Shown: piece by piece, positions 1-11,304 of the stretch
Numbering within the stretch: the stretch's first letter is position 1
Layout of the letters: every line of letters begins with the position of its first letter
Assembly: GCA_000934385.1 (NCBI GenBank)
Contig: KN880907.1
Span: 1 to 11,304 of the forward strand
Length of the DNA: 11,304 bases
Direction: 5' to 3'
From: Cylindrobasidium torrendii FP15055 ss-10
Lineage: Eukaryota > Basidiomycota > Agaricomycetes > Agaricales > Physalacriaceae
Made by a program: the position numbers and the translations under genes
Notes under the pieces: generated by a model
The model's database searches: none
The model's input: only the letters and a program-made list of their open reading frames with translations
Told to the model about the DNA's origin: nothing

Positions 1-93
1 TCTCTCTATACTAACGTTGTATACTACGCGACCGTGGTAGGCGAAAAATTAAATGAGGGTCAGGAGCGCACCAAGTAACGTGGTCCCCTTACA
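1..93 (-). repeat. 3' LTR, first 93 nt (partial)
   Basis: In sense orientation the segment begins TGTAAGGGGACC directly after a G-rich purine tract and continues off the window edge. TG is the usual LTR start, and TGTAA mirrors the TTACA that ends the other LTR fragment at 11266. The fragment should hold the beginning of U3. It contains AT-rich patches and AGTATA-type motifs near positions 3-30, but I cannot identify a promoter with confidence. The boundary is inferred from these signals and not from comparing two LTR copies. Confidence 0.72.
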
Positions 94-111
94 GTGTCCC
101 CCTGCGCTCCT
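62..111 (-). repeat. 9-bp perfect inverted repeat around the polypurine tract and LTR start
   Basis: AGGAGCGCA at 62-70 and its exact reverse complement at 103-111 could form a GC-rich stem with a 32-nt loop. One arm overlaps the TAG stop of the downstream ORF; the other arm is inside the 3' LTR. The loop holds the G-run and the LTR start. This could shape the 3' end of the RNA or the plus-strand primer, but the role is unproven. Confidence 0.55.
97..103 (-). other. Polypurine tract (plus-strand primer site)
   Basis: Sense sequence AGGGGGA, followed by CAC and then the TG of the proposed 3' LTR. Ty3/gypsy elements prime plus-strand DNA synthesis from an RNase H-resistant purine tract just upstream of the 3' LTR. 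The tract is short, and three non-purine-tract bases separate it from the LTR. A second purine run, AAGGGGA, lies a few bases inside the proposed LTR and is an alternative. It lies just after the stop codon of the downstream ORF. Confidence 0.6.
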
Positions 112-2962
112 AAACCGAAGGAGCAGAGTCGTGGTCCAATTCATCTTCCAGCTCTTCAATGCGTCGTCCGCTCCAATTCCCAGGATACATGTTGTTGAGT
201 AGCGAGATTCCCCACTTGACGTCCCGCGAAGTCACCACGTAGTCTCGAGCGTAGTTCCGCTTCTTGTTGCATGCCTGCAAGAACCTCTTCCACTCGCGGT
301 CGGTCTTTCCCGAGGAGAACATCTCATTGTCCGTTTCGATCTGCTTAGTAATGTAGATCAGGAGGTCGTTGATAGACGAATTCCACAATCCTTCTCTATA
401 CCAGTCCAGGTACAGACGCAGAAGTCGTTTCGAGGGATACAGAGTGACGATAGCGGCTCCCTTTCCCAGGCCGTTGTTGCGGTCCGCTTGACCTCGGATC
501 AAGGCTCGTTCTGCCGTGGTAATGCAGTCGCGACGAAGCTGTTCTCCGGTGGAGGAGACCAAAGTGGTAGAGTCTCCTAGCATGAGGCTTGTCAAGCTGG
601 CGGACGGACCCTCTAGCATGAAATCCTCAATGAAGGAGCTCTCTTTCGAGCGGATCCAGTGGGCCATGATCCACTTCTCCACGGAAGATTCGGGGGCTAG
701 TCCTCGAATATGGGCGCGATGCGACAAGTCCTTGAGCTTTTGCATCCAGTTGTTGCGATATGTTGTACCCCCGTCCGGACCGTAGTCGATGAGGGCTTCC
801 GAGAATCCACCTTTGAGACTGGACCCTTCCCTGACGTCCTTGAGAGTCTCTCCTCGACTTGCGGCTTCCTTGATGTCAACCTTTTGCAGCTCCGTCAACG
901 AACGATTATCCCAAGCGAGAGAGAAGTGAATGCCGTTGCTGATAGCGTAACGCAGAACTTGAGCTAAGTCGCGATAGCCGGGGTAGACGTAGTACAGAAT
1001 CTTCAATAGAGCTAAGTCGCTGTCCTCGACAATGAGGTAGGCATCAATCAGTTCATTGTGTGGGAACTCGGGCAGAATTCGGCCCCTCAGAGGTTCCATG
1101 CTGACTCCTTCGTCCATCCCAACAGCTCGGAGGTAGGAGACTACCAGGTTAAACAAAGGAGGGTCGTCCCGCGCAAGACGGTTGTCGTGTCGGAAGTGGG
1201 AGATGACCAGTTCAGCGTGATCTTTAACCTCCATACTAGGCTGGAATTCGTCATACGTGGGGATCGTCAGAGGCCGAGTCTTGTCCTTCTCGGTGAGGCG
1301 AAGCAGCAGCGAAGGAGGCGAGTCTTCCTTCGCGGCTTCTTCATGGTCCTCGGTTTCGATACGTTCTATCAAGGCCACTTCTTGCTCCATGGAGACGTCC
1401 TCGTTGTTGTTCACGATCTCCTCCATGAGTTCCTCGGGGAGATCAGCTACTTCGACGAAGGGAGACACGGAGGGCGACGTATTCTGGGAGTCGGACTCTC
1501 GGAAACCTTGCCAGAAAGTAGGAGGTTCGTCATCGTCTACCAGTAGCGAGCGAATTCCTGAGTCCAAAATCATCTCGTTGGCTGCTTCGTCGTACTCATG
1601 AAACATGAACGAGATGCCCCATTGCGAAGGCGCCGTGAATCGTCCAGGCTTGATGATATTACCGCTAGCTGGTTCTATCTTCTGGCCACGTCCTGGAGCG
1701 AATTTGGGCGCCAGTATCTCGCGCTTGTTGCCCGTCCACTCGCAGTCGAACTCTCGCTGGAATTCCTCCATCTCGCGGCGATTGGTCTCGGCGGCTTCGT
1801 GCTCTTCGCGGGTTCGAGGATCCATGCGCGCGGGTCGATTCCCCAGGAAGGTAACTCGTTTGACAAGGCGTCGCGGTTCCTCATAGAAGACAAACTTGTA
1901 TCTTCTGAGATAGGGCCAGATCTGACCGGGGTCTACTTTGCGAGGAGCCCATCCTTCGAAGTCGACGATGTAGTACTCGAGGATTTTGCCTTTACTTTGT
2001 ATAGCGGGCGAAGGTCGCGAAGCCGCTATGGCTGCATCGTGCCGGTAGCGGTAGCTCAAGTCCAGCTTCTGTAAGTATCCGTCGAAGCTGAGAGCTTCGC
2101 CTATATCCCAGGACTCTCGCTGGAGCACTTCCTTCAGACGGATGTGCCTCTCCTGAGCGCGCCGCATCTCGATGAAGGTTTCGACGACGTCGGGATTGAG
2201 ACGCAGGAAGCGGGGATCGTTGTACAGGTCTTCGCACTCCAGGAGATAGTAGGGGATCTTGGAGCGAGCGTAGAATGGAATGTTGATGCGGGCCCAGTCC
2301 TCCTTGAGATTGAGTATGACTCCCCGGTTCCTCAGGTCGAAGAGCTCCAAGTCTTTTTCAAGGTACGTCCAATCATCAGGTTCGATGCTCTCCTTCACTC
2401 CCTCCATCACGTACCAACACCACTTGATGTAGGCTAGACCAGCAATGATATGGAATTTGACATACGCCCAGAAGTAATTAGCTTGATGCGCGTCGTCGAA
2501 GCGGCGAGAGAGAGCGTTGAGATTCATGACTCGAAGGAACGGGGCGTTCTCGCAGATGAAAGGGAATTGCTTGCGAATATGGGCCATGATCCTCTCGACT
2601 GTCCGAACATCTCGCATCGCCTGCGAGCGCTCTTTGGGATGGAACAATACCTTGATGGGATCACTTTCCTTACGAATAAGACGCGGCTTGTCCTCAAGGA
2701 AGAACCAGACGCCTTCCAGGTTCTCCGAGTTGAGGCATGCGTTCCACGGCGCATCGGGTTCGAGAGCTTCGGGGGATCTGATCCATTCGCTAAAGGAGTG
2801 CTGAAGGTCCTCGTCCGCCTGTAGGAAGAGCTCAGGGCATCGCTCGACGTTGGGCCTCAAGATGGCGCCTGAGTTGTACAGGATGAGATTATCTTCCTGC
2901 AGAGAAGTGGTCCGCTTTGGTTGCATAGGATAGCCTTCATTGGTGAATATAAAGAAATCCAT
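110..2962 (-). CDS. Large orphan ORF in the env position (950 aa, function unknown)
   Basis: I do not recognise this protein family. The first in-frame ATG is at 2962 in a strong context (GCCATGG), giving 950 aa starting MDFFIFTNEGYP and ending at a TAG 16 nt before the 3' LTR. The frame is open upstream but with no earlier ATG. Visible layout, numbered from that Met: an N-terminal globular region to about residue 390, with an aromatic hydrophobic stretch at about 163-189 and a patch around 212-258 containing DPRFLRLNP; a charged R/E-rich stretch near 370-400; a probably disordered, strongly acidic segment at about 470-550; and a second mixed alpha/beta-looking region at about 555-935 ending in an acidic tail. 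No signal peptide from the ATG, no convincing transmembrane anchor and no furin-like site, so a classical envelope glycoprotein is not supported. No RT, nuclease or zinc motif was seen. Its position argues for an element-encoded accessory or virion-associated protein, possibly made by readthrough of the pol UAG. Confidence 0.8.
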   Translation of the reverse strand: MDFFIFTNEGYPMQPKRTTSLQEDNLILYNSGAILRPNVERCPELFLQADEDLQHSFSEWIRSPEALEPDAPWNACLNSENLEGVWFFLEDKPRLIRKESDPIKVLFHPKERSQAMRDVRTVERIMAHIRKQFPFICENAPFLRVMNLNALSRRFDDAHQANYFWAYVKFHIIAGLAYIKWCWYVMEGVKESIEPDDWTYLEKDLELFDLRNRGVILNLKEDWARINIPFYARSKIPYYLLECEDLYNDPRFLRLNPDVVETFIEMRRAQERHIRLKEVLQRESWDIGEALSFDGYLQKLDLSYRYRHDAAIAASRPSPAIQSKGKILEYYIVDFEGWAPRKVDPGQIWPYLRRYKFVFYEEPRRLVKRVTFLGNRPARMDPRTREEHEAAETNRREMEEFQREFDCEWTGNKREILAPKFAPGRGQKIEPASGNIIKPGRFTAPSQWGISFMFHEYDEAANEMILDSGIRSLLVDDDEPPTFWQGFRESDSQNTSPSVSPFVEVADLPEELMEEIVNNNEDVSMEQEVALIERIETEDHEEAAKEDSPPSLLLRLTEKDKTRPLTIPTYDEFQPSMEVKDHAELVISHFRHDNRLARDDPPLFNLVVSYLRAVGMDEGVSMEPLRGRILPEFPHNELIDAYLIVEDSDLALLKILYYVYPGYRDLAQVLRYAISNGIHFSLAWDNRSLTELQKVDIKEAASRGETLKDVREGSSLKGGFSEALIDYGPDGGTTYRNNWMQKLKDLSHRAHIRGLAPESSVEKWIMAHWIRSKESSFIEDFMLEGPSASLTSLMLGDSTTLVSSTGEQLRRDCITTAERALIRGQADRNNGLGKGAAIVTLYPSKRLLRLYLDWYREGLWNSSINDLLIYITKQIETDNEMFSSGKTDREWKRFLQACNKKRNYARDYVVTSRDVKWGISLLNNMYPGNWSGRRIEELEDELDHDSAPSV

Positions 2963-3043
2963 GGCTATGTAAGAGGCTGTAGGTTCAACGCTCGAAACAC
3001 TGGCCAGCTCCGGTGCGTAATCGCTCGCGGAGAGGAATGGATA

Positions 3044-3076
3044 TGAGAGTGAGAGGGAAAAAGAGAAGAAAGAAAC
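3044..3076 (-). promoter_or_regulatory. Pyrimidine-rich block upstream of ORF2
   Basis: In sense orientation this is an almost uninterrupted C/T tract ending about 80 nt before the ORF2 ATG. CT-rich blocks are common in fungal core promoters close to the start site, and pyrimidine tracts also precede 3' splice sites (CTACAG and CATAG follow before the ATG). Either could provide a separate mRNA for the downstream ORF. No clear TATA box or branch point was found, so this is suggestive only. Confidence 0.3.
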
Positions 3077-3207
3077 CGAGTCGAATAACCCCCCAACAAT
3101 CAAAGAATAGAAACTACGAACCGATTTCGAGGTAAATGACGTCGTCGAAAGTAGAGATGAAGCAGATAGGCCAAAATGAAACCCGGAACGCGTGCGGTCG
3201 CTTCTTC

Positions 3208-3231
3208 CCCGGAAAGTAATTATCTTCCGAG
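3208..3231 (-). other. Possible RNA hairpin downstream of the pol UAG
   Basis: Sense CTCGGAA and TTCCGGG can pair over 7 bp (one G-U) with a 10-nt loop, starting 22 nt after the UAG. Structures 3' of a stop can promote readthrough, although the well-studied murine leukaemia virus pseudoknot sits closer (about 8 nt). Weak evidence by itself. Confidence 0.25.
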
Positions 3232-3253
3232 AATTTTGCCTCCGCTGATCGCC

Positions 3254-3256: not shown

Positions 3257-6200
3257 GAGTTTATGCTGCTTTTGGTAAGATCGAAGAACATCAGGAGCGT
3301 TCTTCAAATCTCGAGCTGTTTGCCAAGTATCGCTTTGTGGGCCTAAGTCCTTCCATCTGACCAGGTACTTAATATCTTTCCCTCGTCTTCGGTGACCAAC
3401 TATATCCTCCACTTCCCATTCTTGCGACGGTTGTTTAGGTCTGGCAGTGGACTTGAAGGCTCGAGCACTCCAGTCTTCCTCGGGATTGGGTTGGTACAGT
3501 TTGAGGTGCTGCACGTTGAATACTGGGAACCCTAAGTATGTGTCGTCCATTCGAAGTCGGTACACGTTCTCGTTGATCCTGTTCATTACCTCGAATGGTC
3601 CAATCCATTTGGGTCCCAATGACACTCCTTTCCCTTTGGCTTCGCTCATCTTCAGAGAATGCGGATTGATCAGCACCCAGCTTCCTTCTTGTATCTCTGA
3701 AGTATCTCGACGCCCTTTGTCGTAGGCTCGCTTCTGAGCATCTTGCGCTTTAGCGATTGCACGCCTAGCGCTCTCCCGGTGAACTCGGAGGTCTCTGACA
3801 AAGACTCTGCCTTGCTTGTCCAATCCGTAGCGATCCTCTTCCTGCTTTGCCGAAGGATAGTGCAAATCCAAGGGAGACGGAGGGTGATATCCCAAGAGTA
3901 AGTAGAAGGGCGTCTCTCCTGTAGTCGCGCTCACGTGACTGTTGTACGCGAACTCCAGCAATCTTGACCATTTAGCCCAGTCCTTCCTGTCATCCGCTAC
4001 ATAGGCTCGAAGAGCCGTCTCCAGCCATCGATTCGTGATCTCGGTCTGACCGTCATGCTGAGGATGGTGCGATGAAGAATACGCCATGTCCACCATCATT
4101 GTATTTGCCACTCCTCGCCAGAAATCCGAAGTCCATCTCGGATCTCTGTCGCAGAAGATACTGGTAGGAATCCCATATTTGAGAGCGATCTCCTTCACAA
4201 ATAGGTGTCCAAATTCCTTAGCGGATAGTCCTGTGTCAGTGAGAATAAAGCTTGCATGCTTGGTGAGACGGTCCACTACGACCAGGATGCAGTTGTAACC
4301 TTCCGACCAGGGTAAATCCACAATGAAGTCCAATGATACCGACTCGTAAGGTCTCGTAGGAATGGGACTGGAAATGAGCTTGCCGTATCTCGAGAAACTT
4401 GCTGGTTTGATCTTCTGACATACGTCGCACGAACGACAGAATTTGTCTATGTCTACGTGCATCCTGTGCCAATAAAATCGAACCGATAGCTTGTCCCATA
4501 GTTGTTCTGCGCTGAGGTGAGCTGATTCCAGTGGATGTTCGTGCGCCTGGATCAAAATTTCCGCCCGTAAGGACCTTGGCACGCATAATCTGGGAACATA
4601 GTCCGCATCCTTGAAGAATAAGAGACCTGCCTCGTTCCTGAAAAACCTATAGTCGTGACTCCATTCCTTAGACCTTGTCCATTCCAGAACGCGCGTGAAT
4701 TGTGGATCTGAGTTGTAACCTTCTCTGAATCTCTCCAACAACTCATTGCCCATCTCGATGTGCACGAGAGGAACTTCCCTCCTTCTGTCCTCGTACTGCT
4801 TCTTGGCCTGTCTTCTGCCTAGCCTTGGGTCGCTCTTTTCTTCCTCAACTTCTTTCTCTGCGGAGTGAGGAGAAGTTTTGTCTACGTTCTGAGTACCTTT
4901 CGTCCCCCCTTCTCCACGCTTCGCTTGCGACCTTGTCACCGCCATGGCTTCTGCCAGTTTCTTCGCTGGTGCTCTCTCCAATTCTTCCTCTAATTTGGCG
5001 GCTAAGTCCATGTTTGGTCGAAGAGACTCTGTGTTCGGTTCTCTGGCAGGTGAGGTATGCGATGGGGGCATTCTTGGTATCCTCGACAAAGGATCCACAT
5101 TTGAATGTTTCCTCCCAGGACGATGTATAATCGTCAAATTCGGCGCATAGGCTGAGAACACCGTCCCCCACGATGCTAAGCGTCGATTTGTATACTCGTA
5201 GGTTCGAGCCCACTGCAACGCTGAATGATCTGTCACCAACAGGATCTTCTCTCCTTCTATGAACGGTTGGAATCGAACAAGACCCTCTTTGGCTGCTAGA
5301 GCCTCTCTCTCGGTGGTTGAATAACGAGTCTCCGCTGATTTGAAGCGCCTTGAATAGTATCCGATTACTCGTTCAACCCATATCTGTGTCGAGTCCAAAT
5401 CCGTCCCCCACTCTTGCACGTATCTCTCCGTATCGTCTTTCTCTCCAAGCTTGAGGTACATTCGAGGGGGTGTTGGTGTTCGTTCGTCCCATGCGGCCTG
5501 CAGCCTATCGTACGCCCTTGTACCTTTCAGATCGCGAACTTCGATTAGCTGCACTTGCTGCAAAGCGCATCCCAGCGCGTCGTCCGAAGCATCTGTATAT
5601 AGACGGTATGGGAGTCCTTCGACCGGATGTCCTAGTACCGGCGCTGACTGTAACGCCGCCTTTGCCGCTTCGAAGGCATATTCCTCCTCAGCTCCCCATT
5701 TCCACTCGTTTCCTTTCTTCAGTAACTCGAACAAGGGAATGCAGGTGTCCGAGAAATATGGAATGAACAAGTTGAAGTAGACAACCAATCCTATGAACGT
5801 CTGTAGCTCGGACATCTTTGTAGGCCTTGCCATTTCCGCAATTGCTTTCACTTTCTCTTCATGAGTCGCAAGTCCAAGCCTCGAGACTTCGTGACCCAGC
5901 AACAAGATGGAGTCGTAGAATAGATGGCACTTGTTGGGAGCTAGAGTAATTCCTGCGTCTTCGATAGCCGTGAGAATGGTGTCCAGATGCGCTATGTGTT
6001 CCTCAAAAGACTTCGAGTACACCACTATGTCGTCGATATAAACCAGAGTGAACTGCCATAAGTATGGAGACAGGATTCCTTGCATAACTCGCTGGAATAT
6101 CGAGGGCCCATTTCGCAACCCGAAGGGCATCCTTTTGAATTGGAATAATCCCCGATGGGTGCGGAAAGCCGTCTTCTCTATATCCTCAGAGTGTAGGTTG

Positions 6201-9200
6201 AGTTGCGTAAATCCCGACAAAGCATCCAAAGACGAAAGAACCTGAGCTCCAGCTAGAGCTCCCAATATCTCTGATTGCCTTGGAATAGGGAACTCGTCCG
6301 GAATCGTTTTTGCATTCAATTTCCTATAGTCGACGCAAAACCTGGGTTTCCCGTTTCGGTAAACAATGACGACCGGGGCTCCCCATGGGCTCTTCGAAGG
6401 TTCGATGACATCCTGCGCGAACCATTTGTCCAATTGTTCCTCGATGACTTTTCTCTTCTCTGGCGAAGTACCGTACATGGGTAAGCTGATAGGCTCCGTG
6501 TCTGGCATTGTTCGGATTTTTGCCTCAGTGGCTACTTGTCCCAATCGTCCATCGAATCCAAATGCTTTCACATGCTTTTCGAGCATATTCCAGGCTTCCT
6601 CTTTCAAGGATTCTGGAATTTTTCCTATGTCGATGGTCTCTCGGATTTGGCTTGCTGGGAATTCAGTGGGATCTGGTACGTAGCTGGTTTTTGGCCCATC
6701 CTCTTTCTCCTCGTCCGTGGTACTCCTAGCCTTCGCTTCATCGGACAGTCTCTGGTCGAAAAGCTCTTGCACCATGGCAGCGTACGCGCTCATCTCCTTC
6801 AAGGTTCCTTCGGTTCGAGGTGAATCGATTTCGGTTTGCGCGGCAGAAACCCAAGCTACGGCTTCCCCTTGTCGGACGATCCTAGGTGTAGACGAAGTAT
6901 TGCTGATGGGAATTCTCATGTGTTCCTTGTCGATGAGAGTATTGGGCACTGCAAGGTATGCGCCTCCTTTCAATTCTAGCAGCCCTTTCTCGACTAGGAA
7001 AGCTTCTTCCCCTTGCAAGAGTCCTTCGACCTCCACATTGGCGCAGGAATGAGCGTGTATCAGCACATCTCTTGACGCTCTCACGATGTGCAGATTACGC
7101 TTGCTCTGCTCGAGTCGTCGTTTTCGAGCGTTCTTTGTACGACGATGAGCTCGCGTTTTCTGAAACGACGCCATGAGGGCTACATTCTCCACGAGCAAGT
7201 TCGCGTCTCTGGACGGCATCACTTCCTTTGCTTTCACGACGTGATTCGAGTTCTTGAATCGGATACGGCTGCCTTCTTCCAGATCAAGGCTCACTGTCAA
7301 CTCGTAACCCAAGATATAGTCCATTCCCAGCAGCAAGGGTACTGTCATGCCCGTGACAAGATACACTTCCGCTTCGGTTTGGACCACCTCCCCGTCCTCC
7401 GTTTCCGTGAACAGAGCAAGAGTACAGTATCCTTCGATGGTGTTATTACGCGAGGTGAGCTGATACAAGTCCAATTTCGTTCCCTTGTGCAGCGAGGGTC
7501 GGTTATCCATGGATTTCCAGAACTCATACGACATTAGAGAAACATTTGCGCAGGTATCCACTCTCTGGTCAATTACTTGACCATTCATAGTGTTCACCGA
7601 ACCTCTCATGGACAGTACTGATACTCCCAAAGCGGATTGCCCGGGGGCTCTTTTGCGCCTAGGTTCTAGGAGAATTGGTACGGTGGGTTTGGGCGGACCC
7701 GGCAATTCAGAGTTCAGTGCCTCCGCAGGAGTTTCGAATTCATCCTCGGTGTATGCTTCATTCCAGTTTGCCTCGTATTCTCCAAACGCTGGAATCTCCT
7801 GCTCATAGTATTCTTGAGGCGGAGGCTCAGCGAGTTTCGTCGGCTCCTTCCTCATCCCCGTATGGAATTCCTCTATCTCTTCGTCCTCTTTCGTCCAATA
7901 CTCCCGCTTTTTCTCGATGAGTTCCTCAAACCCTTCATCTCTTGATAGGTTCACTTCTTCATCGTCACACTCCTCCAACGTCGTACGTTTGTAGGTCTTA
8001 CTCCTCGGAGAGTCGCTCGTCGAGCGCTCGGACGCCTGCTCAAAACCCTGTAGCCTCTCTGCCCGTAGGATTTCGTAGGCCATGTCGTAAGCTGGTTCTC
8101 CTTCACTCAGATTAGCTTGTTTCTTACGACTCGCCAAATACGAATCCCAATCAGGGCATTCCTTGTTCCAATGATCTGGACTTCCGCAAGCATAGCAAGG
8201 TTTTGGCGGAGGCTTACTCATTCGAGTCTTGTTGTGGTTCCGCGGGAAAGGATAGGTGCGCTCTTTGTTGGAGCTAGGCTTTGAGAACGAAGCTTTCTTC
8301 GAGCTTACTTGGAAGGCTTGCGCTGGTTCGGTAATGTCCCCCAGTAGATCGATGAGCGGGTCCTCTACCTCAGTCGTATGAACTTCCTTTTCCTCTTCCT
8401 CGATAACGGGGAGCGCTTCGGCCTCCATAGCTCCTTTGCGCTGGTCTCGACTGGACGAAGCTCTTGGGTTCCCATACCCCAGATCCTTGAGCATGGACGC
8501 CAATTTCCCGTGGGTTAAGTCTCCCGAAGACTTCTGAACTGATGCTACCAAAGCCTTCTCGTGAACCAGAGTTCGAGCGAGCAGTTCTTGCGCTGTAGTT
8601 ATCGACGGGACATCCAAGATGGGAGTCCATGCTTCGGGAACCCTGTTCAACAAGAGGCTGACTTGCCCGCTCGCGGTCTGCTGGGACTCCAAATCCAGTA
8701 CTCGCATGTATAGAAGTCTTCGAACGATGAAGTCTTGAGGCATTTCGTGCTCATGTCCCCGTTGACGGAAACGTTGCGTCTCGAATTGGGATTCGACTTC
8801 AAACTTCCATTCTTTGCCAAGATACTTCTTCTTGATAAGTTGAACTCCGTACCACCAATTCTCCTTGGTGGCCTCGATGTCATCTTCGCTCTGAGCCCCC
8901 CACCAATTGTCGATTCCAGAGCCAGCTTCGAAACAGTCTTGTAACCACCTTCCCATTCCTTTACTAACTCTCTCTCCTCTGCGCGCGGTTTTCTGGAGTG
9001 CGAATATCCAAGGCAACGCAGCCTTCTTCGAACCATCCCATTTGGGTATGGAATCTACTTTGAGGCGGACGTCCCAGTAAGGTTCGTCGTTATCATCACG
9101 ACGTCCCCCATTGCAGCCGCAATTTCCTCCAGGACCTCCTCCTCCCGGGTCGCCTGGATCTCCTTTGTCGCCCTTGTCGCCTTTGTCACCCTTGTCGCCT

Positions 9201-11206
9201 TTTTCTCCTTTCTCGCCGGGATCGCCCTTGTCGCCTGGATCACCTGGCTCACCAGGAGCTCCTGGAGCTCCATCTCTTCCAGGTGGGCCTTCTCGCCCTC
9301 TGATTCCAATCGGCCCTGGTGGTCCCGGGTCTCCCTTGTGGCCGCTGGGACCCTTCCTGCCTGGAGGTCCAGTAGGCCTCTCGGATTCTAAGCGGATGAG
9401 CCGATCTTCTAACTCTTCAATGTACGTCAGAAGAGTCGAACGGCTGGATAGGTTTGGTCTTTCAGGTTCCACTACCTGCGCTGACTGCCACTCCACGGGC
9501 TTCGGTGGAATTGGAGGTTTTGGCGATGACTGAGTGCCCGTCTTCCCGTAAAACCAAGTCGCCGAAGTGTAAGGACTGAGACTCTCCGTTCCCGAGAGCT
9601 CTTCCCTGTCTTCAACAGGTTTTCCTTTGTACGACGGAATCACTCGCAGGTTGGGCGCGTCGCGAATGGGATCCTTCCCTTTGGCTCGCTTTCTCTCCTC
9701 CCTGGAGCGAGGAGAGAGTGGACCGTACATAGTCCAGTCGACTTCTTCCGAGTCCGGGTTAGTTCTCCCTAACCACCCAGGTCGCGCTTGGGCAGATTCC
9801 GGTCTGGTGGGAGCCGGCCCGAAGATGAACTCGTCGTTATCGTACGCATGTCCCGCTGGGTTAGAACTAATACGACCAAAATTCTTCCTAATCTTGGCGG
9901 TGCGACTGTACTCTGATCCAGCTGGTGAGTGCGAGCGAAACGAATTCATTGGAGTCCAAGATCTCTCCGTGACATCCCTCATCACCTCACTAGTCTCCGA
10001 GGCTGGTCGAGACGTCTGTATGACAGATCCTTCTCGACTTCTCATCCTACTCCCAGCATCTTCAGATCTGGGCGGCGTGAAATGAGCAATTCTCGGTGCC
10101 GCCGAAACGGACCCAATGGGATCAAGTAGTCCTTCCGCCTCAACCACTTCCGCCGTTTTTGGAATCCTTGATCGAGAGGACTCGCGACTGATCGTAATGG
10201 GGCGAGGGATTTTGGAGTCAGTTTTGACTCGTGCAGACGGAGATCCCGTGAGTGTCGCTTCGGACAGCCTCATGGAGGGTGAAGCGGAAGACCGATGTGA
10301 CGCCTTTGGCGTCGCTGAAGAACTCTGAGGCGAGTTCACCGGCTCCTCGACGAGTTCCTCTGGTTCCTCAGATTGTTCCTCTGGGCTTGCTGGTAGGACT
10401 TCCGGTAACACGACTTGATACTTAGTCTCGAGACTTATAGGTTCTGGATCCTTGCGGAAGAACTCCGACTTTTGCGAGTTAAATGCTTTCGTGGTTTTAA
10501 TTCCAAGCGTAGACTTCAGCCCAATTTGTATCGGAATGAGCTCGTGAAAGGGGGCGTCCTCAACGCGATGCTTCTGCTTCTTCGCCATCTGCTCCTGATG
10601 CTTAGGAATGTTCTTCAAGAGCGCTCGAGTCTGCACTTCTACCGTTCTCGCCTGACGAACCTCGTCATACAGATCCCTATCGGTCGATACGGAGGGAGGG
10701 TGCGTAGGGCCGCTCCGTTCCCTCCGATACTGACGAGCGTATCTTTCGAGACGCTCGTTCCCCGTGTGGAGACGCTTGCACGTAACTTCCCACAGGGTGT
10801 TCAGCAGACCTAGGTCGTCTGTACCTCGAGCGAACGTCCGCTTAGCAGCATCCTGCGGATCGACCTCGTATGGCAACTTTCCTTCTCTCTTCCTTTCTGG
10901 CAGCAACTCCTCGGCGCGCACCAGAAACGATTGCATCTCCTCCATGGTTTGAACCACCTTGTGGAGAAATCCTTCCTCGAGACAGAAACGTCCAACTCCT
11001 GGAAGATCGCGTTTCGGTCCTCGGTCAATTAGGTTTGCTTTCCTCAGATGGGAAGCCCAAAATACGGAAGCTCTCTTTCGAGTAGACTTCCGCTCCGCTG
11101 AGTCTTTGGTGTACTCCTCGAAGAGTGCCTTCATTGGAGACGAATTGTAGCCCTTGGACATGCCGGGGCGAGGCGAGGGAGCGCTAGAGCGGCTCGTAGA
11201 CGCCAT
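3254..11206 (-). CDS. gag-pol: Gag-Pol polyprotein of a chromovirus, single ORF, with collagen-like Gag domain
   Basis: A 2650-aa polyprotein for particle assembly, reverse transcription and integration. The ATG is at 11206 with G at -3 and G at +4, 59 nt after the LTR end. Domains by residue: N-terminal extension 1-590 (helical and charged to about 230, then Ser/Pro-rich and probably disordered, with a proline-rich PPIPPKP near 570); coiled coil 589-609; collagen-like 613-687; capsid about 708-890; CCHC knuckle 1004-1017; protease about 1200-1318; beta-rich linker about 1372-1458; RT about 1565-1760; RNase H about 1865-2045; charged tether to about 2205; integrase about 2205-2455; GPF module about 2500-2570; chromodomain 2596-2650. 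Gag and Pol are fused without frameshift, as in several fungal chromoviruses, so Gag:Pol ratio must be set after translation. Typical single-ORF relatives are roughly 1300-1600 aa; most of the excess lies N-terminal to the capsid. No disabling mutation was found. Confidence 0.97.
3257..3421 (-). other. C-terminal chromodomain (residues 2596-2650)
   Basis: [14 protein letters not shown], then [10 protein letters not shown], then [10 protein letters not shown] and a final helix give the complete chromodomain pattern, ending at the UAG. In chromoviruses this domain steers integration to marked, often heterochromatic, chromatin. Aligned with HP1, cage position 1 is Trp (W2597) in place of Tyr, position 2 is Trp, and position 3 (Tyr in HP1) is Leu, so methyl-lysine binding may be altered or lost. 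Confidence 0.92.
3497..3709 (-). other. Integrase C-terminal GPF module (residues about 2500-2570)
   Basis: [24 protein letters not shown] contains the Gly-Pro-Phe core (2536-2538) of the GPY/F module found in Ty3/gypsy integrases, followed by [12 protein letters not shown]. The module contributes to multimerisation and target-site interactions. It links the catalytic core to the chromodomain. Confidence 0.9.
3842..4594 (-). other. Integrase zinc-binding and DDE catalytic domains (residues about 2205-2455)
   Basis: The N-terminal HHCC finger uses H2222 or H2224, H2230, C2260 and C2263 (29 residues between H2230 and C2260). The catalytic core has D2293 (SLDFIVDLP), D2353 (FCDRDPRW) and E2389 (DGQTEITNR), with exactly 35 residues between the last two, the DD35E signature. 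It joins the linear cDNA to host chromatin. Confidence 0.97.
5072..5614 (-). other. RNase H domain (residues about 1865-2045)
   Basis: Catalytic acidic residues are visible as YTDAS (D1872), TTEREALA (E1968), LVTDHSAL (D1993) and SNVDPLSR (D2038). It degrades the RNA template and generates the plus-strand primer. The first D to E distance is 96 residues, against about 43 in Ty3, because of an insertion at about 1887-1942. Confidence 0.95.
5381..5548 (-). other. About 55-residue insertion inside RNase H (residues about 1887-1942)
   Basis: Between the first catalytic strand (D1872) and the segment leading to E1968 lies a charged stretch including [18 protein letters not shown] and TDLDSTQIW. 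It replaces a short connection in Ty3. I have an unverified impression that basidiomycete Ty3/gypsy relatives carry a comparable insertion, so it may be a lineage mark and not specific to this copy. Confidence 0.65.
5927..6514 (-). other. Reverse transcriptase domain (residues about 1565-1760)
   Basis: Contains [10 protein letters not shown] (D1626), the first catalytic aspartate in [12 protein letters not shown] (D1661), [13 protein letters not shown] (from 1692) and the YIDD catalytic pair at 1723-1726 (D1725, D1726), then LLLGHEVS. All three metal-binding aspartates are present and the spacing is standard for Ty3/gypsy. It copies the element RNA into DNA inside cytoplasmic particles. Confidence 0.98.
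7253..7609 (-). other. Aspartic protease domain with DTC active site (residues about 1200-1318)
   Basis: [12 protein letters not shown] places the catalytic aspartate at D1217, and [10 protein letters not shown] at 1289-1298 is the partner hydrophobic-Gly motif of retropepsins. The domain should cut the polyprotein as a homodimer. The usual DTG/DSG triad reads DTC here (codon TGC, one base from GGC). Whether this is lineage-specific or a mutation of this copy cannot be told from one sequence. Confidence 0.85.
8156..8197 (-). other. Nucleocapsid CCHC zinc knuckle (residues 1004-1017)
   Basis: [14 protein letters not shown] matches CX2CX4HX4C exactly (C1004, C1007, H1012, C1017). It binds the element RNA for packaging and tRNA annealing. 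It is followed by a long acidic stretch before the protease. In most relatives the knuckle lies within the first few hundred residues; here it is past residue 1000. Confidence 0.95.
8537..9085 (-). other. Ty3-type Gag capsid region (residues about 708-890)
   Basis: Begins [16 protein letters not shown] and holds the Trp- and Arg-rich helical pattern of retrotransposon Gag proteins, including KENWWYGV, a QRFRQRGHE segment and [14 protein letters not shown], the region where relatives carry the hallmark of the Retrotrans_gag family. It should form the particle shell. Boundaries are approximate, set by the collagen tail on one side and a charged linker on the other. Confidence 0.7.
9146..9370 (-). 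other. Collagen-like Gly-X-Y domain in Gag (residues 613-687)
   Basis: Twenty-five uninterrupted Gly-X-Y triplets run from GPPGRKG to GDPGDPG, followed by a Gly-rich GGGGPGG and an NCGC pair just C-terminal. The first half is Pro-rich (GPP, GAP, GEP); the second half is charged, with seven Lys-Gly-Asp and one Lys-Gly-Glu junctions. Such Lys-Asp/Glu pairs are known to stabilise triple helices without hydroxyproline, as in bacterial collagen-like proteins. Expected role: a rigid trimeric stalk joining the N-terminal extension to the capsid domain, with the cysteines as possible interchain links. Collagen repeats are not a standard part of Ty3/gypsy Gag as I know the family. Confidence 0.9.
9164..9199 (-). 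repeat. 9-bp tandem repeat encoding (Gly-Asp-Lys)x4
   Basis: Four consecutive GGN-GAC-AAR units. Lys codons alternate AAG/AAA and one Gly codon is GGT, hinting at duplication of an 18-bp pair. Such arrays can expand or shrink by slippage, including during reverse transcription, so copy number may vary between element copies. Confidence 0.75.
9380..9442 (-). other. Short coiled coil before the collagen domain (Gag residues 589-609)
   Basis: L592, I596, L599, L603 and L606 follow a regular 4-3-4-3 spacing in a Glu/Arg-rich helix, ending three residues before the first Gly-X-Y triplet. Short coiled coils of this kind often nucleate trimers next to collagen helices in animal and bacterial collagen-like proteins. 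The role here is inferred. Confidence 0.6.
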
Positions 11207-11253
11207 TTCGAAGTTGTTTTTGTTTTGCTAGTCGGGAATGGGGAGGTTCCCAA
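11207..11253 (-). other. 5' leader between primer-binding site and Gag ATG
   Basis: Only 47 nt, containing no ATG and no GT dinucleotide. The last part is A-rich (AGCAAAACAAAAACAA), an unstructured leader that suits scanning ribosomes. With no possible 5' splice site here, a spliced ORF2 mRNA would need a donor in the LTR or inside gag. Confidence 0.6.
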
Positions 11254-11264
11254 TGTGTCCACCA
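11254..11264 (-). other. Primer-binding site (putative tRNA)
   Basis: Sense TGGTGGACACA begins one base after the LTR end. TGG pairs with a tRNA 3' CCA, the next T with an A at position 73, and GGACACA with a seven-base acceptor strand TGTGTCC. That implies a host tRNA starting GGACACA. Its identity is not determinable here; A73 is typical of leucine tRNAs among others. Confidence 0.65.
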
Positions 11265-11265
11265 C

Positions 11266-11304
11266 TGTAATCCGTCAGCAGTAGGATTACGAGTTCTAAT
11301 ACCT
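11266..11304 (-). repeat. 5' LTR, last 39 nt (partial)
   Basis: In sense orientation the fragment ends GACGGATTACA directly before the primer-binding site. TTACA is the inverted match of the TGTAA that starts the 3' LTR, and LTRs end in CA. The fragment should be the end of U5; the remainder lies beyond the window. Confidence 0.7.
11267..11290 (-). repeat. 7-bp perfect hairpin at the end of U5
   Basis: GTAATCC and GGATTAC, separated by 10 nt, pair perfectly and end one base before the LTR terminus. In RNA this hairpin would sit next to the primer-binding site, a place where retroviral U5 stems influence tRNA priming. It also overlaps the integrase end-recognition sequence. Confidence 0.5.

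Follow-up and report, generated by a model that had tools for sequence, protein, structure and literature searches.

What does a collagen-like module do in the Gag protein of a fungal retrotransposon? Ty3/gypsy Gag proteins are kin of retroviral capsids and of domesticated capsids such as Arc, and in a copy from Cylindrobasidium torrendii a run of Gly-X-Y triplets lies in frame shortly ahead of the capsid domain. The questions that follow are whether this run is a product of chance or of selection, how often it arose, and what it might form on the particle. We analysed a window of 11,304 nucleotides, corresponding to contig C473 in a genome of 29.3 Mb and 494 contigs. It carries an element of Ty3/gypsy type, and no description of its Gag module was found in the listed titles and starts of abstracts of open-licence papers on collagen with Gag, retroelements or fungi.

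Architecture of the element

The features of the window, in the direction of transcription of the element, are the following.

11266..11304, minus strand: 5' LTR, last 39 bases, identical to the LTR ends on contigs C71 and C382
3254..11206, minus strand: Gag-Pol polyprotein, 2650 aa, a single open frame
10607..11149, minus strand: Gag N-terminal helical domain, about aa 20-200 (AlphaFold2 model)
9380..9442, minus strand: short heptad helix of the window copy, aa 589-609 (simple a/d scorer)
9146..9370, minus strand: collagen module, 25 Gly-X-Y triplets, aa 613-687 (Pfam Collagen; kept in sister copy C474)
9068..9145, minus strand: Gly-rich tail, aa 688-713, with NCGC (9113-9124) and NGGRRDD (alignment to C474)
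8489..9067, minus strand: capsid domain, aa 714-906 (family HMM and AlphaFold2 model)
8156..8194, minus strand: CCHC zinc knuckle, aa 1005-1017 (motif; zf-CCHC 22.3 bits against a cut-off of 20.8 with the frame scanned as a separate piece)
7316..7591, minus strand: protease region, aa 1206-1297 (gag-asp_proteas E 0.067, under its cut-off)
5885..6352, minus strand: reverse transcriptase (RT), aa 1619-1774 (RVT_1 E 5.5e-30)
4403..4582, minus strand: integrase zinc-binding domain, aa 2209-2268 (Integrase_H2C2 E 4.7e-16)
3269..3418, minus strand: chromodomain, aa 2597-2646 (Chromo E 1.8e-11)
110..2962, minus strand: second open reading frame, 950 aa, between pol and the 3' LTR (35% identity to its C474 counterpart)
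1..93, minus strand: 3' LTR, first 93 bases, 93/93 identical to the LTR on contig C71

Pfam cut-offs are exceeded in the 2650-aa frame by RVT_1, RNase H, integrase zinc-binding, SH3_Tf2-1, Chromo and Collagen; the domains follow the order RT-RNase H, integrase, chromodomain, with starts at aa 1619, 1837, 2209 and 2597, and the integrase catalytic core rve had no match in the window protein in the Pfam scan. Both marks of a Ty3/gypsy Gag are present, the retroelement capsid fold and the zinc knuckle. The domain right behind the module is modelled as a retroelement capsid fold (AlphaFold2 pLDDT 77.6 for aa 714-906), and the model matches Arc, MOAP1, Copia, PNMA2, Ty1 and the HTLV-1 capsid, with a best Foldseek E of 0.015 and the strongest matches covering the C-terminal lobe. 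The original prediction that the module stands in frame directly ahead of a capsid is borne out by this model and its structure matches, the module ending 26 residues ahead of the modelled domain. At the other end of Gag, aa 1-209 (10580-11206, minus strand) are modelled as helical with a pLDDT of 86.2 from 22 sequences; the model has no clear match in the PDB or among viral models, and the N-terminal region is 36% identical in C474.

Full 399-base LTRs are found at C71:111134-111532 and C382:17537-17935, identical at 399/399 positions and with ATAAC on both outer sides, a target-site duplication. This pattern looks like one recent insertion whose LTRs broke the assembly, and the two LTRs probably border the window copy itself. 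Because the LTRs are identical and the same five bases border them, the element looks young and complete; it is of Ty3/gypsy type with a chromodomain. The LTR end at 11266-11304 contains a small inverted repeat, GTAATCC / GGATTAC, and at 11245-11265 (minus strand) the sequence past the 5' LTR has one base and then starts TGGTGGACAC, which may be a primer-binding site.

The second open reading frame sits where an env gene would, and in a search against Pfam it had no family at E 0.001, the best being 0.068. Its counterpart in C474 lies at 136-2838 on the minus strand. In the window the frame stays open from the gag-pol stop to the second open reading frame (2963-3253, minus strand), in the same reading frame, while C474 has the second frame overlapping pol in another reading frame, so the open stretch is not common to both. 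A 704-aa open frame past pol on contig C43 weakly resembles the second open reading frame (hmmsearch score 14.0, single target).

The glycines of the module are under selection

Glycine occupies every third residue from aa 613 over 30 triplets, and in the first 25 neither X nor Y is glycine. The predicted 25 perfect triplets are thus confirmed, with an agreeing start at aa 613-687 and a Pfam Collagen match (PF01391) at E 3.3e-10, 40 bits against a cut-off of 27.2. The last five triplets are looser and include NCGC (aa 695-698); the Gly-rich tail with this motif, which had been counted within 9146..9442, is present and falls just outside that interval. A chance Gly-X-Y run is ruled out by residue shuffles of aa 561-713, in which the longest glycine run was 8 in 20,000 shuffles versus 30 observed, together with the unbroken sister copy described below. 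A present host collagen gene was also rejected as donor: when the 29.3 Mb were scanned for PF01391 in six frames, exon by exon, with the best candidates scored, the window element and C474 alone matched.

The genome search returned four elements whose RT is at least 63% identical to that of the window, namely C473 itself, C474 (85%), C43 (69%) and C395 (63%), and the remaining RT matches were 30-33% identical. C474 holds the collagen module at the same place, with 25 canonical triplets. The original prediction had taken sibling copies with lost, broken or out-of-frame repeats as the sign of a chance insertion; the sister keeps its repeats in frame and unbroken. The pair is old, since synonymous sites are nearly saturated between C473 and C474 (pS 0.68-0.96 across ten regions). 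Over 24 aligned triplets, in a best alignment offset by one triplet, no glycine has changed (0/24) versus 23/48 X/Y positions (Fisher p 9e-6), and the third base of the glycine codon differs in 19 of the 24. The effect is clear in the first 12 triplets (0/12 versus 17/24, p 4.5e-5) and is not significant in the last 12, which are rich in KGD (0/12 versus 6/24, p 0.079). The glycines of the module are under selection, a result that comes from this single pair of elements.

The rates of nonsynonymous change between the two copies place the module (dN 0.33) beside the capsid (0.38), while aa 191-590 reach 1.20, the heptad stretch 0.92 and the N-terminal 190 residues 0.67; the tail gives 0.21, with 17 gap columns, and includes a 10-residue stretch common to both copies. 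The identity of the slot ahead of the capsid, divided by that of the capsid, is 1.18 for the window and C474, the highest among 162 pairs of relatives from the matches listed (RT identity 0.80-0.90, pairs sharing members; median 0.62, next 1.16), and it is again the highest among 20 non-overlapping pairs of those matches (next 0.94). In the window/C474 slot, 34 positions are gapped in these pairwise alignments, mostly outside the triplets. The ratio supports constraint without proving it, as glycine at every third place inflates identity.

Could the module be a functionless low-complexity expansion, produced by slippage of a 9-base unit? TRF reports periods of 9, 18 and 27 bases within 9149-9245 (68-77% match), as slippage would leave, but triplets 1-13 keep perfect phase outside these arrays, the lone resembling stretch there being 9321-9356 at 67%. 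In addition, all four glycine codons are used, the phase is kept in the sister across near-saturated synonymous divergence, and a module is found twice at the same place (see below). Slippage as the origin of the whole module falls on these data and explains the KGD-rich half at most, and a functionless expansion is in our judgement highly improbable.

The slot ahead of the capsid in relatives

Relatives were taken from the best 120 of 685 RT matches and, in a second RT search with the distant relative P0104, from the best 120 of 438. The pool contains 167 sequences (163 database proteins plus the window, C474, C395 and C43), of which 65 are scorable, with 100 aa or more ahead of the capsid start, and 102 are not. 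Among the matches listed, the agaricomycete Gag-Pol relatives (for example of Hypsizygus, Phanerochaete and Antrodiella) have the same N-terminal domain and capsid family as the window and, in most fungal rows, an RT 57-75% identical to it, but 62 of the 65 scorable slots are irregular, Gly/Pro-rich in 33 and charged or Ser-rich in 29 by a rough composition rule. The longest canonical run in the whole protein is 2-4 triplets in these 62, and the exceptions are the window (25), C474 (25) and P0104 (18). Since no run exceeds four canonical triplets outside these three, collagen is a discrete state of a usually extended linker. The original prediction knew of no other Gag with such a module; two more were found here, in C474 and P0104.

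P0104 carries its 18 triplets in the same slot, with one GGH that leaves 9 consecutive triplets by strict count, and its Pfam Collagen score is 28.1 against the cut-off of 27.2. The RT tree has 76 rows, of which 64 carry a scored slot and 12 do not, P0104's nearest relatives being among the latter. It joins the window and C474 as sisters (100/100) and puts P0104 in another well-supported group; the starred branches force at least two changes of slot state. On this tree, the module of P0104 was evidently gained separately. Two polyproteins of the family, P0109 and P0150, are filed under archaeal and bacterial metagenome assemblies and are probably eukaryotic contamination.

The three modules differ in what accompanies the triplets. 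KGD/KGE pairs number 8 in the window and 7 in C474 and are missing from P0104, and in the last 12 triplets X and Y are mostly charged in the window and C474 alike. The coiled coil proposed as collagen nucleator fared poorly. The heptad stretch itself is present (aa 590-610, with L/I/V/M at 5 of 6 a/d positions by the simple scorer), but it is short, at about three heptads, and the scorer rates aa 78-102 within the modelled N-terminal domain slightly higher, so the a/d score is no strong sign of a coiled coil. The region aa 590-612 is 26% identical between the window and C474, and no heptad pattern precedes the module in C474 or P0104. A shared coiled-coil nucleator was consequently rejected; the heptad helix is private to the window copy and can at most help there. 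The cysteines, proposed to lock the chains, do not form a general feature either, CxC ahead of the capsid occurring in 2 of the 65 scorable slots among the matches listed, those of the window and C474. Disulphides are not expected to be stable in the cytosol, and it is speculation that the CxC pair binds a metal or becomes oxidised outside the cytosol.

A proposed trimeric stalk

The best reading of these observations, to which we give about an even chance, is a selected triple-helical stalk, probably directed outward at the threefold positions of the capsid. The 75-residue modules of three Gag chains would wind around one another as a triple helix, roughly 21 nm long at a rise of about 0.29 nm per residue. 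Lys-Gly-Asp/Glu pairs between chains would stabilise it, and in the window copy the short heptad helix would perhaps assist folding; in model peptides, such KGD/KGE pairs add 15-17 C to the Tm (PMC7824840). Ty3 particles have trimeric capsomers from which the N-terminal domains of the capsid stick out, and the chain ahead of these domains heads outwards through the capsomer's centre (PMC6525542). By analogy, the helix would emerge mid-capsomer as an outward stalk, lifting the N-terminal helical domain, along with the disordered region, off the shell and tying three Gags together. The outward stalk is favoured because chains that meet at a threefold axis just ahead of the capsid have the geometry of a collagen helix; the placement would follow from likeness to Ty3, whose Gag has no demonstrated appendage. 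Against the stalk stand the heptad pattern, missing from C474 and P0104, the KGD/KGE pairs, missing from P0104, the KGD-rich last 12 triplets, which taken alone fall short of significance, and the capsid matches, whose best Foldseek E is 0.015 and which are strongest over the C-terminal lobe.

A variant of a flexible hydrophilic spacer, in which Gly-X-Y keeps the chain extended and soluble without trimerisation, would account for the irregular slots of most relatives, where a plain spacer suffices. It also agrees with the GGP-rich and Pro/Gly-rich slots of C395 and C43 in the same genome and with the 10 glycines in phase in C395, the longest plain phase outside the collagen group among the 65 scorable slots of the matches listed, and the 9 in that of P0065. 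Such a spacer has no need of exact phase, yet all glycines were kept while half of X/Y changed, and the window/C474 slot changes less relative to its capsid than those of the 161 other pairs, with the inflation by glycine noted above. We regard this spacer as rather unlikely. More improbable still is an intracellular role of the triple helix, either as a processing signal or as a rod for binding, whose charged Lys-Gly-Asp tract might for instance hold RNA or a host factor. The charged X/Y residues of the last 12 triplets in both copies would suit such a rod, but P0104 lacks the tract, and a position right ahead of the capsid fits an architectural role.

The proposed stalk can be set beside known systems. 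Ty3 of yeast shares with the window the order capsid, zinc knuckle, protease, RT, RNase H, integrase, and a retroelement capsid fold ahead of the zinc knuckle; unlike Ty3, which has 36 residues ahead of the folded capsid N-terminal domain, the window has a pre-capsid N-terminal helical domain, a disordered stretch and the collagen module, as well as a second open reading frame past pol (PMC6525542). EPclA and EPclB of E. coli prophages likewise have a coiled coil followed by a charged collagen domain without hydroxyproline, but they carry phage fibre domains at both ends in a bacterial host, and for them trimers and stalks were demonstrated, with a collagen Tm of 42 C (PMC3368898). The EPclA type is defined by a trimeric coiled coil beside the collagen that is kept in relatives, and here the heptad occurs in the window only. 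Mcl1 of Metarhizium is also a fungal collagen-like protein, but as described it helps cells to escape insect immune detection and is no retroelement protein (PMC11105155).

The wider proposal is that the threefold capsomers of fungal retrotransposon particles bear trimeric collagen stalks, acquired in this Gag slot on at least two occasions and folded inside the cell without a secretory pathway, as a retroelement counterpart of viral fibres; we hold it tentatively, below an even chance. If true, a selected collagen-capsid fusion in two lineages would show how a naked capsid acquires an outward trimeric appendage, and the module, as collagen that should fold in the cytosol, would make it possible to probe what a triple helix minimally requires.

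On contig C77, where no RT occurs among the matches listed, a lone capsid-like stretch (11205-11627, 26% identical) lies in a 222-aa open frame and may be a remnant or a domesticated Gag.
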